Shown here: in pieces, positions 29,757-31,665 of the stretch | Position numbering within the stretch: position 1 is the first letter of the stretch | Layout: the number at the start of each line of letters is the position of its first letter | Assembly: GCF_011045165.1 (NCBI RefSeq) | Contig: NZ_JAAKZI010000036.1 | Span: forward strand, 1-35,437 | Reading direction: 5' to 3' | Length of the DNA: 35,437 nt | Origin: Arthrobacter silviterrae | Lineage (GTDB): Bacteria; Actinomycetota; Actinomycetes; Actinomycetales; Micrococcaceae | Program-made: the position numbers and the translations under genes | The notes under the pieces: model-generated | Database searches by the model: none | What the model was told of the DNA's origin: nothing | What the model saw: the letters and a program-made list of their open reading frames with translations, nothing else

Positions 29757-29786
29757 TTGTCGCCGGGGCTGGGGGCGGTTTACAGT
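29757..29786 (+). promoter_or_regulatory. Leaderless promoter of the DAHP synthase leader peptide
   Basis: TTGTCG (29757-29762), 18 bases, TACAGT (29781-29786). The leader ATG begins six bases after the -10, so transcription probably starts at the ATG itself. Confidence 0.55.
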
Positions 29787-29792
29787 ATTGCC

Positions 29793-29852
29793 ATGACAAA
29801 GCGTTGGTATGCGTATTTTTCGTTGGCTCTGGAGGGGCCCGCGTCTAACTGA
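29793..29852 (+). CDS. Aromatic-rich leader peptide of the DAHP synthase gene
   Basis: A 19-codon ORF encodes MTKRWYAYFSLALEGPASN. Four of five consecutive residues are aromatic (W, Y, Y, F), covering all three end products of the pathway that DAHP synthase starts. A leaderless promoter places the transcript start at its ATG, and the message then folds into several hairpins before the aroG-type gene. This is the arrangement of ribosome-mediated attenuation: ribosome stalling at WYAYF when aromatic amino acids are scarce would change the downstream fold. A similar leader is known upstream of a DAHP synthase gene in Corynebacterium glutamicum, as I recall. Confidence 0.75.
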   Translation: MTKRWYAYFSLALEGPASN

Positions 29853-29944
29853 CACGCATCCAACTTTCCTTCAGAGCCAACAGGACAGAGAAATTTTTCT
29901 CTGTCCTTCGCCATTTCCAGGCGGGTTTCTGAAAAGGGGCCCGC
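29822..29944 (+). promoter_or_regulatory. Attenuator hairpins between leader peptide and DAHP synthase
   Basis: GTTGGCTCTG (29822-29831, inside the leader ORF) pairs perfectly with CAGAGCCAAC (29872-29881). Next, AGGACAGAGAAA (29882-29893) pairs with TTTCTCTGTCCT (29896-29907) around TT. A third pairing is GCGGG (29921-29925) with CCCGC (29940-29944). GGGGCCCGC occurs both in the leader ORF (29834-29842) and at 29936-29944, so alternative pairings with the GCGGG are possible. The ribosome on the leader codons would cover the first arm. Confidence 0.65.
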
Positions 29945-29970
29945 TGCCGCCAGCACAAAGGACCCGCCCC

Positions 29971-31095
29971 GTGAGCATCACAGCAACAGCAGCCAAATCC
30001 ACCACCGCAAACCTGCGCGTCAGCCACTTCACCGCGCTCCCGTCACCCGCCGAACTGGAAGCGGCGCTGCCGCTGGACGCAGTGGCCGGGACCGCCGTCG
30101 AACGCGGCCGCGACCAGGTCAGGGCCGTCATGGACGGTGTCGATGACAGGCTCCTGGTGATCGTGGGCCCCTGCTCCATCCACGACCCCGCGGCCGGGCT
30201 GGACTACGCCCGCCGCCTGGCCGCGACCGCGAAGGAGCACGAAGAGGACCTGCTGATTGTTATGCGGGCCTACTTCGAAAAGCCGCGGACCACCGTTGGC
30301 TGGAAGGGCCTGATCAACGATCCGCTGCTGGACGGCAGCCACGACGTGGCAACCGGGCTGGGCCTGGCGCGCAAGTTCCTGCTCGACGTTGCCGCCCTGG
30401 GGCTGCCCACCGGCACTGAATTCCTCGAGCCCATCAGCCCCCAGTACACGGCGGACCTGATCTCCTGGGGCGCCATCGGTGCCCGCACCACCGAGAGCCA
30501 GATCCACCGCCAGCTCACGTCTGGGCTGTCCATGCCCGTCGGCTTCAAGAACGGGACCGACGGCGGCCTCCAGGTGGCGCTCGACGCGTGCCAGGCGGCC
30601 AGCGCACCGCAGTCGTTCCTCGGCATTGACGGCGGCGGCCGGGCGTCACTGGTCAGCACGGCCGGCAACCAGGACACCCACATCATCCTCCGCGGCGGGC
30701 GGAAGGGCCCCAACTACTCCGCCGTCGACGTCGAAACCGCCTCCAGCGCTGCCGCGGACGCAGGAATCAACCCGCGCCTGATTGTCGATGCCAGCCACGC
30801 CAACTCCGGCAAGAGCCACCACCGCCAGGCCGAGGTGGCGCTGGCCATCGGCGCCCAGCTGGAGGCCGGCGGCGCCTCCTCCAACGCCATCGCCGGCATC
30901 ATGCTGGAGAGCTTCCTGGTGGGCGGGGCGCAAAATCTGGACGTGGACCAGGTGGCGGCCGGCACCGCCTCCCTGACGTACGGGCAGAGCGTGACGGACG
31001 CTTGCATGGAGTGGGATGTCACGGCCGATGTCCTGGCAAACTTGGCCCGCAGCTCCCGTGCCCGCCGCCTCCGCGGCACGCAGGACGCGGCCTGA
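29971..31095 (+). CDS. aroG: 3-deoxy-7-phosphoheptulonate (DAHP) synthase, class I
   Basis: It condenses phosphoenolpyruvate and erythrose-4-phosphate to DAHP, the first committed step of the shikimate pathway. The 374-aa protein is the class I alpha type (AroG/AroF/AroH), with VGPCSIHDP, EKPRTTVGWKGLINDP, GARTTESQIHRQLTSG, VGFKNGTDG and IVDASHANSGK. These contain the metal-binding Cys, His and Asp residues and the phosphate-binding lysines and arginines. The GTG at 29971 has AAAGGA eight bases upstream; an in-frame start at 29809 would run through the leader ORF and hairpins. The exact isoenzyme letter is not determinable. Regulation by aromatic amino acids is expected through the 5' leader and possibly by feedback. 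Confidence 0.93.
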   Translation: MSITATAAKSTTANLRVSHFTALPSPAELEAALPLDAVAGTAVERGRDQVRAVMDGVDDRLLVIVGPCSIHDPAAGLDYARRLAATAKEHEEDLLIVMRAYFEKPRTTVGWKGLINDPLLDGSHDVATGLGLARKFLLDVAALGLPTGTEFLEPISPQYTADLISWGAIGARTTESQIHRQLTSGLSMPVGFKNGTDGGLQVALDACQAASAPQSFLGIDGGGRASLVSTAGNQDTHIILRGGRKGPNYSAVDVETASSAAADAGINPRLIVDASHANSGKSHHRQAEVALAIGAQLEAGGASSNAIAGIMLESFLVGGAQNLDVDQVAAGTASLTYGQSVTDACMEWDVTADVLANLARSSRARRLRGTQDAA

Positions 31096-31217: not shown

Positions 31218-31454
31218 ATGGCGCAGGGGCAAAATTTCTCCAACGTGAACTTCCTGACGGTTCAGGAAGTGGCGGAGCTGATGCGTGTCTCCAAGATGAC
31301 CGTCTACCGCATGGTCCATGCCGGTGAACTTCCCGCCGTCCGCTTTGGCAGGAGCTACCGCGTGCCGCAGAATGCCGTGGAGGCAATCCTGAAGTCGACC
31401 GTGGCGGACAGGGCGGAGTCCGAGGGGAACCCCGGTTCGGCGCATACCGGCTAG
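31218..31454 (+). CDS. Excisionase/BldC-type helix-turn-helix DNA-binding protein
   Basis: This 78-aa protein is a single MerR-like/excisionase winged helix: FLTVQEVAELMRVSKMTVYRMVHAGELPAVRFGRSYRVPQNAVEAIL. It has no effector domain, so it binds DNA alone or as a multimer. Proteins of this kind with nearly the same core are conserved in actinobacteria directly upstream of the small ribosomal protein bS22, as here. The ATG at 31218 has only AGAGG two bases upstream, which is too close. A GTG at 31245 overlapping the stop of a possible upstream ORF is an alternative start, but it would cut off the NFSN segment before the helix-turn-helix. Confidence 0.85.
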   Translation: MAQGQNFSNVNFLTVQEVAELMRVSKMTVYRMVHAGELPAVRFGRSYRVPQNAVEAILKSTVADRAESEGNPGSAHTG

Positions 31455-31566: not shown

Positions 31567-31665
31567 ATGGGTTCAGTTATTAAGAAGCGCCGCAAGCGGA
31601 TGGCGAAGAAGAAGCACCGCAAGCTGCTTCGCAAGACTCGTCACCAGCGCCGCAACAAGAAGTAA
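31567..31665 (+). CDS. 30S ribosomal protein bS22 (AURKAIP1/COX24-domain)
   Basis: A 32-codon ORF starts [19 protein letters not shown] and continues [13 protein letters not shown]. It is extremely basic, with 22 of 32 residues Lys, Arg or His. It matches from memory the conserved actinobacterial small-subunit protein bS22 of mycobacteria, which differs at only a few positions. GAGGA lies five bases before the ATG and a strong rho-independent terminator follows. Such genes are often missed because of their length. It lies next to the excisionase-type regulator gene, the usual actinobacterial neighbour. Confidence 0.92.

Follow-up and report, generated by a model that had tools for sequence, protein, structure and literature searches.

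The class I DAHP synthase gene of Arthrobacter silviterrae is preceded by a real, strongly conserved RNA element that is probably a switch read by the ribosome. It can with good confidence be regarded as a leader-peptide (ribosome-stalling) attenuator of this gene, in which a stall at Phe/Tyr codons would release one RNA strand (B') to another (D). The strand pairings are supported by sequence comparison; the ribosome masking, the response to starvation, the polarity and the read-out are inferred. If this is true, the entry step of aromatic amino acid synthesis in many actinobacteria would be under one ribosome-read RNA switch. The element was found in a 35,437-nt stretch of DNA, which was analysed as a whole and is called the window below.

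Organization of the leader region

The features of the region are listed in Table 1. The GTG start of the DAHP synthase was picked by its Shine-Dalgarno (SD) sequence, and its reading frame stays open back to an ATG at 29809.

Table 1. Leader region and DAHP synthase gene in the window
Feature	Position	Strand	Remarks
Promoter-like TTGTCG (29757-29762) and TACAGT (29781-29786)	29757..29786	+	Read from the sequence; 18-nt spacer; start predicted at or near leader ATG
Leader ORF MTKRWYAYFSLALEGPASN, 19 aa with W-Y-A-Y-F	ATG 29793 to TGA 29850-29852	+	In 102 of 102 family genomes with the gene
Strand A GTTGGTATGCGT	29803..29814	+	Trp/Tyr codons; pairs with A'
Strand B GTTGGCTCTGGAGG	29822..29835	+	Within leader ORF; pairs with B'
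Strand A' ACGCATCCAAC	29854..29864	+	Directly 3' of the stop codon
Strand B' CCTTCAGAGCCAAC	29868..29881	+	Switch strand; pairs with B or D
Hairpin C	29882..29907	+	11 bp and 4-nt loop, then CTTCGCCATTT
Strand D GGCGGGTTTCTG	29920..29931	+	Pairs with B' or D'
Strand D' GGGGCCCGC	29936..29944	+	Pairs with D; also matched to the SD region in most other genera
SD-like AAAGGA of DAHP synthase	29957-29962	+	Sequence; 8 nt before GTG 29971
Class I DAHP synthase, 374 aa, GTG start	29971..31095	+	NF009395 and TIGR00034 above curated cut-off

The 198-nt leader RNA has a folding energy of -79.4 kcal/mol (z = -4.75), and none of 200 shuffled sequences was as good. B:B' is the strongest pairing within the leader, with 14 bp including one G-U, while A:A' consists of 11 bp with one bulged base and D:D' makes a third stem. 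A preliminary description of this DNA, made from the letters alone, had noticed a 10-bp pairing with the leader ORF; pairing with the leader is confirmed, the strongest one having the 14 bp just given. Its perfect 12-bp hairpin is hairpin C, although this folds with one pair fewer, as given in Table 1. Its third stem with duplicate segments was also found: GGGGCCCGC occurs at 29834-29842 and again at 29936-29944, but the duplication is incidental, being common to only 7 of 102 genomes (four of genus g1, that of the window, and three of g10). The duplicate was therefore ruled out as a conserved feature; what the genomes preserve is the D:D' pairing. The stem that had been labelled a hexamer, AGGACAGAGAAA, is a 12-mer. 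No Rfam 15 family matched the window at the gathering score, and a permissive search gave a single match, on the antisense strand, at chance level (E = 3.5).

The DAHP synthase gene is directly followed by a gene for a small DNA-binding protein of the excisionase/HTH_17 type (31218-31454). Further downstream, the ORF at 31567-31665 encodes a short basic protein, which we take to resemble a small ribosomal protein of the bS22/AURKAIP1 type, and is followed by a hairpin and a T-run as judged by eye. Upstream of the leader, the region from 4346 to 29697 carries genes for the use of sugar acids and pectin, with Gfo/Idh/MocA, enolase-like, aldehyde dehydrogenase, rhamnose isomerase-like, FGGY kinase and GH28 polygalacturonase (with fn3) types.

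Conservation of the leader ORF

DAHP synthase was present in 102 of 245 genomes of the family Micrococcaceae, belonging to 15 of 32 genera, and the 500 nt upstream of the gene were collected from all 102 (30 loci and 72 regions). A leader ORF with W-x-A/S-x-F is present in every one of them. The codons CGT, TGG, TAT, GCG, TAT, TTT, GCT, CTG and GAG are each identical in 100 to 102 of the 102 genomes, third positions included. The leader Tyr positions are TAT in 202 of 204 cases and the Phe position is TTT in 101 of 102; in 30 complete downstream DAHP synthase genes, TAT makes up 1 of 155 Tyr codons and TTT 11 of 216 Phe codons. In all 102 genomes, a short ORF that is predicted to be translated thus bears codons of amino acids of the pathway upstream of a pathway gene, as is characteristic of attenuators.

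The TACAGT hexamer of the window ends 6 nt 5' of the leader ATG, exactly as the preliminary description had it for the 19-aa ORF, and the generic sigma-70 promoter scan did not list the TTGTCG/TACAGT pair. Each of the 102 genomes has a TAnnnT hexamer before the leader ORF, at a distance of 6 nt (57 genomes), 7 nt (41) or 8 nt (4), and an SD-like motif precedes the ORF in just five. Because of this spacing and the rarity of SD-like motifs, the leader mRNA is likely leaderless and probably begins at the leader ATG. The earlier view, in which a class I DAHP synthase gene is preceded by a leaderless aromatic leader and by RNA that can fold in alternative ways, is thus supported, leaderlessness being probable. 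Leader ORF and RNA structures, on whose conservation that view had been made to depend, are conserved in related genomes, the ORF in 102 of 102.

The same conservation bears on two other explanations. The R and A residues that stand among the aromatic codons hardly vary (100 and 101 of 102), as would be expected if the peptide RWYAYFxxALEGP itself stalled the ribosome and sensed a free aromatic metabolite. Such a peptide arrest of the ribosome, sensing a free aromatic metabolite, is known from TnaC. We consider it improbable for the present leader, in which third codon positions are invariant too and the L, E, G and P codons coincide with strand B or with a self-hairpin of B. Leaders of other families, moreover, retain Y-x-x-F and B with different peptides, and in the leader of genome G123 (L020) a 1-nt insertion behind WYAYF, possibly a sequencing error, shifts the frame and alters the peptide but keeps strand B intact. 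More improbable still is a metabolite riboswitch or a protein-binding site that overlaps a short ORF by chance: it would account for the nucleotide conservation outside the pairings (part of A and the tail after C), but not for the rare in-frame aromatic codons, the stop codon and the -10 hexamer spaced as for a leaderless mRNA, which all 102 genomes have; no Rfam family matches.

Comparative support for the alternative pairings

Pairs were counted in 53 distinct sequences, at most six per genus, picked for diversity from 105 (the 102 family genomes, genomes G349 and G544, and L057 from Candidatus Avipropionibacterium). With B:B', C and D:D' taken together, 91.9% of the cells were paired, compared with 38-61% in slid controls. 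Both sides had changed in 99 cells (14 in B:B', 61 in C and 24 in D:D') versus 25.6 in shuffles, which ignore the relatedness of the sequences, and 0 of 500 shuffles were as high. B:B' alone was paired in 97.7% of cells, and hairpin C was the best covarying helix, its 61 cells falling in six of eight pairs. The alternative combination, B':D with C, was paired in 83.2% of cells, with 76 doubly changed cells versus 19.2 in the same type of shuffle (0 of 500 as high). These 76 were divided between C (61), B':D (9) and a misplaced mini-hairpin helix (6); the folds suggested this CGCC/GGCG mini-hairpin between C and D, and the columns scored for it were out of place (32% paired). B':D by itself was paired in 90.0% of cells, a value lowered by genera g1, g18 and g23 being partly out of register at D, and its nine cells are the thinnest covariation among the switch pairings. 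When pairs with a change on both sides were counted, 8 and 13 of 500 shuffles were as high for B:B' + C + D:D' and B':D + C, respectively, which is barely beyond chance, and for further pair types 80 and 388 of 500 were.

Single columns illustrate the pairings of B', with some changes extending across B, B' and D. Of 53 rows, 45 read T/A/T at columns 39 (B), 96 (B') and 161 (D), seven read T/A/C or T/A/G, and L057 reads C/G/C. Columns 94 (B') and 163 (D) read C/G in six g7 rows and two of five g8 rows, T/A in 21 and T/G in 10; 12 rows are unpaired and two have gaps.

The native pairing energy was also set against the energy of strand pairs recombined between genera (102 genomes of 15 genera, 20,000 permutations, floor 5e-5), with strand D assigned under a gap limit. 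Four pairings were significant in this swap test: B:B' (-22.69 versus -22.38, p = 3e-4; 11 of 15 genera better both ways), B':D (-12.96 versus -12.41, p = 1.5e-4; 8 of 15), D:D' (-17.0 versus -13.0, p = 5e-5; 15 of 15) and D':SD (-11.5 versus -8.7, p = 5e-5; 12 of 15). The small gains for B:B' and B':D are explained by these strands hardly varying. The D':SD matching fails in g1, g26 and g30 and is marginal in g10. The other pairs were null in the swap test, namely D:SD (0.19), D':CDS (0.23), D:CDS (0.93), B':SD (0.97), B':D' (0.70), B:SD (0.99) and B:D' (0.28). Strand D can pair with the SD region, at -16.8 kcal/mol in the window and -13.7 to -23.0 in g10, and this pairing was rejected as a common mechanism since it was no better than the genus swaps.

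A:A' complementarity exceeded that of dinucleotide shuffles (p ≤ 0.05) in 91 of the 102 genomes. For B':D, the mean fraction of shuffles as good was 0.044 over 102 genomes, with weak values in g1 (0.127), where the D assignment took part of D' in six genomes, and in g23 (0.089). Taken together, the comparisons give good support to a strand switch in which B' would pair with B or D, and D with D'. B:B', B':D and D:D' would be mutually exclusive and one of them lies within reach of a stalled ribosome, as in attenuators. A chance origin of the element was rejected by the z value of the fold, the leader ORF in 102 of 102 genomes and the swap tests.

Position of the aromatic codons and folding with a masked ribosome

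The Phe codon ends exactly 6 nt before the GCTC of strand B in 101 of the 102 family genomes. The same spacing was found in 39 of 51 leaders outside this set, which are not independent (L066 is from Micrococcaceae, L057, L190 and L191 have RWYAYF, and L059 and L215 are identical in their upstream DNA); six of the rest are without GCTC, two without Phe and four have other distances. Among the 43 of these leaders having both Phe and GCTC, a Tyr codon stands three codons earlier in 40 (TAT in 38), and Phe is TTT in 41. The Trp codon, unlike Phe and the Tyr three codons before it, moves or is absent in leaders outside the family. The former proposal that the ribosome stalls on Trp, Tyr and Phe codons alike is thus not supported in that form, since only Phe and this Tyr hold a fixed place more widely.

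The leader was also folded with the nucleotides under a stalled ribosome masked. With the Phe codon in the A site, B:B' fell from a mean of 9.4 to 0.7 expected pairs and B':D rose from 2.6 to 7.2. The second Tyr codon gave intermediate values (B:B' 4.0, B':D 4.3), and with Trp or the first Tyr codon B stayed free (B:B' 13.1 and 13.3). Since a pause at these two codons leaves B free, they would not act like the Phe codon, although they are conserved. The default fold varied by genus: g7, g20 and g31 favoured A:A' with B':D, and g1, g8 and g10 favoured B:B'.

Comparison with known leader-peptide attenuators

An aroR-aroF leader-peptide attenuator of Corynebacterium glutamicum was reportedly described by Neshat et al. 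in 2014. In the genomes studied here, its locus (L237, genome G697) was recognised by an exact 27-base primer match. It has MFAARFYFMSGSGASPRQLAISCAT before aroF; the Phe codons are followed by GGCTCCGG and the stop codon by CCGGAG, and then comes a hairpin with TTTTTTGTTT after it. As in the Micrococcaceae, a short aromatic leader ORF (F-Y-F in aroR) precedes a class I DAHP synthase (NF009395/TIGR00034); TAAGGT stands 8 nt before the leader ATG, and the layout is similar by eye. In contrast to the Micrococcaceae element, which has D and D' and no U-tract, the aroR hairpin has a T-run. At the C. glutamicum locus, B:B' (p = 0.33) and D (p = 0.8) were no better than shuffles, and covariance model R1, built from the present leaders (see below), did not match it at E ≤ 10. 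By analogy, the Micrococcaceae element likely works like aroR, and the two could not be placed in one RNA family. The C. glutamicum attenuator is also treated in the accessible part of PMC4046766. According to the part available of a review (PMC11802643), the Phe-Tyr-Phe leader of aroR responds to limitation of Phe but not of Tyr, and the control is called transcriptional; the excerpt available of PMC7356990 speaks of translational control by Phe and Tyr. C. glutamicum aroR was the sole actinobacterial case with a reported response found in the literature searched.

Other leaders can be likened to the Micrococcaceae one by their descriptions only. PMC6429828 (in part) reports two candidate uORFs that share with it the Phe and Tyr codons and the link to shikimate genes; they were found from five genomes, whose phyla are Firmicutes, Proteobacteria and Synergistetes according to the accessible text of PMC8632094. 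The uORFC-13-1 motif upstream of aroF in Acholeplasma, described in the same text of PMC8632094, comprises a uORF with at least one Phe codon and an additional base-paired part; it differs in having an RBS, preceding an apparent intrinsic terminator and belonging to a different phylum. The trp, leuA and ilvB leaders of Actinobacteria have regulatory codons before biosynthetic genes, and several are leaderless (PMC1262725, PMC8079986 and PMC10272879, each in part). The trp terminators of the 2005 survey (PMC1262725) have U-tracts, unlike the present element, and the portion of it that is accessible reports no conserved structures before other amino acid pathway genes.

Leaderless short ORFs also occur in mycobacterial attenuators, if with other codons. 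Those with polycysteine ORFs were reportedly described by Canestrari et al. in 2020. In them, the rate of elongation sets downstream expression (PMC9031893, available portion); the short ORF is likewise leaderless, and by its description there the attenuator differs in using cysteine and in the genes it precedes.

In the literature searched, most subscription journals being outside the search, the leader peptide motif was not found, nor was a description of the Micrococcaceae element. The principle is known from aroR-aroF of C. glutamicum, and the structure is a new, terminator-poor variant. It may, tentatively and at somewhat below even chances, represent a leader RNA family undescribed in that literature and spread over several actinobacterial families. 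In such a family a leaderless Tyr/Phe leader would be combined with a strand-swap chain (A:A' or B:B', B' to B or D, D' to D or SD) that relays the position of the ribosome to the RBS of DAHP synthase without a terminator, and the position of the codons within the fold would help to freeze the rare TAT and TTT.

Proposed mechanism, polarity and read-out

In the reading that we prefer, the mRNA would start at the leader ATG and ribosomes would translate RWYAYF by way of TAT and TTT codons that are rare in DAHP synthase genes. When charged tRNA-Phe is short (or, more weakly, tRNA-Tyr, through the second Tyr codon), the ribosome would pause with the codon in its A site and cover B. B' would then pair with D, and D:D' would be prevented. 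Free translation would allow B:B' to form and leave D to D'. The read-out could be either translation initiation, with D' masking the SD region, or a stop of transcription at or after hairpin C or D:D'. This Phe/Tyr-stall reading is preferred because of the masked folds and of the response to Phe, and not Tyr, reviewed for C. glutamicum aroR. That B':D is the on state is only slightly favoured: 12 of 15 genera show matching of D' to the SD region, and on the simple reading of this, B':D would be the off state. In the window's own genus, g1, both the translational and the transcriptional read-out are hypothetical.

The opposite polarity is possible, though we hold it rather doubtful. A pause at the Trp/Tyr codons would cover A, so that A:A' fails, B:B' and D:D' form and the SD is free (on); during free translation A:A' and B':D would form and D' would bind the SD region, with translation off. 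The D':SD matching, significant next to its null controls, and the A:A' complementarity both favour it, although the former is unsupported in g1, g26 and g30 and marginal in g10. Computed folds of g7 agree as well, with 14.0 expected pairs for A:A', 8.1 for B':D and 7.1 for D':SD when no ribosome is present, and with 13.1 for B:B', 6.5 for D:D' and 3.0 for D':SD under a Trp stall. However, this polarity leaves unexplained both the fixed spacing from Phe to B and the Phe response reported for C. glutamicum (PMC11802643, in part), and the modelled mean SD accessibility does not follow it. The computed accessibility showed no consistent shift with ribosome position: for stallY1 minus none the mean was -0.008, with a rise of more than 0.1 in 4 genomes and a fall of that size in 7, and for stallF it was +0.04 (22 genomes up, 12 down). 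A consistent unmasking of the SD by the stalled ribosome was thus not seen.

Classical transcription attenuation, in which C or D:D' would terminate (as a weak intrinsic or Rho-dependent terminator) unless a stalled ribosome prevents it, is a possibility to be taken seriously, if one we would not bet on. The order B:B', B':D, D:D' is that of a classical 1:2, 2:3, 3:4 attenuator, the C. glutamicum locus has its hairpin with TTTTTTGTTT at the position of C, a Mycobacterium leader (L059) has TTTTCGTTTTTC behind hairpin C, and one of the two partly available accounts of aroR cited above (PMC11802643, against PMC7356990) is in its favour. In the 8-nt tail after C, however, 53 of 101 genomes have no more than 3 T, 34 have 4 and 14 have at least 5, and a scan for terminators found none on the sense strand. 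Behind D' there is no U-tract and T is rarer still, since 99 of 102 genomes have 3 or fewer among 8 positions, so that the doubt raised about it in the preliminary description was right. C is compatible with the alternative pairings found, and hence nothing seen would switch it. A switchable hairpin with a U-tract, as in transcription-terminating attenuators, was not found in the leader, and the tail composition does not support C or D' as a canonical intrinsic terminator.

Should the Phe/Tyr-stall reading hold, the element would be a natural system, with a partner-changing strand, in which codon stalling is converted to a change of expression without an intrinsic terminator. It would also let one ask which aromatic amino acid is really sensed. 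In the engineering of such bacteria for aromatic products, the switch may be a limit that has been overlooked.

Distribution outside the Micrococcaceae

A pattern scan of 394 class-level genomes found leader DNA in five, three of them of the family and the others G349, which belongs to a different family of the order, and G544, which lies outside it; in both of the latter the leader lies directly before DAHP synthase. Covariance model R1 was made from 43 of the 53 sequences (113 positions) and run on the window and 89 loci. At E ≤ 0.01, 40 of these 90 sources, of which the window, L190 and L191 were in the model, matched on the sense strand at the leader, and none of 17 non-actinobacterial sources matched at E ≤ 10. 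R1 gave one match in the 4.29-Mb genome that contains the window. Among 246 class-level genomes searched with stricter filters, 23 had one match each (E ≤ 0.001), and in every case the DAHP synthase match followed at a distance of 58-172 nt. These were 19 genomes of family group f27, two of the Micrococcaceae, one of group f42, and G349; group f11 had none.

Leaders elsewhere read RWYRRFTAAPGRAG, RRYRYFAQAPGGAG or RAYWRFIVAPGGAS. A leaderless aromatic ORF was found at 11 of 27 class-level loci (1 of 540 shuffles), at 46 of 79 further loci (6 of 1580 shuffles) and at 18 of 20 additional loci, for which no shuffles were run; none was found in 12 loci of family group f24. In the 51 leaders outside the 102-genome set, with the overlaps mentioned above, p ≤ 0.05 was reached for B:B' in 42 and for B':D in just 21.

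Several related or similar leaders were noticed. Class I DAHP synthases of Mycobacterium, Dietzia and f27 (several loci among L059-L085 and L192-L228) have a sister leader, ..YWRFI.APGGA / RRYRYFAQAPGGA, whose B/B' layout is the same. At Sorangium and Polyangiaceae loci (L097 and L105), the short ORFs MRSGRFEFWFGYWRPRERRLGPTC and MASRRFFWFGYWRAETAATGSSL start some 160 and 176 nt before the DAHP synthase match and are possible independent aromatic leaders in Myxococcota; they failed the -10 spacing test. Finally, an actinobacterial MAG and a Rubrobacter MAG (L069 and L084) bear the leaders FYERFYYR and FHERFYYRF before DAHP synthase.
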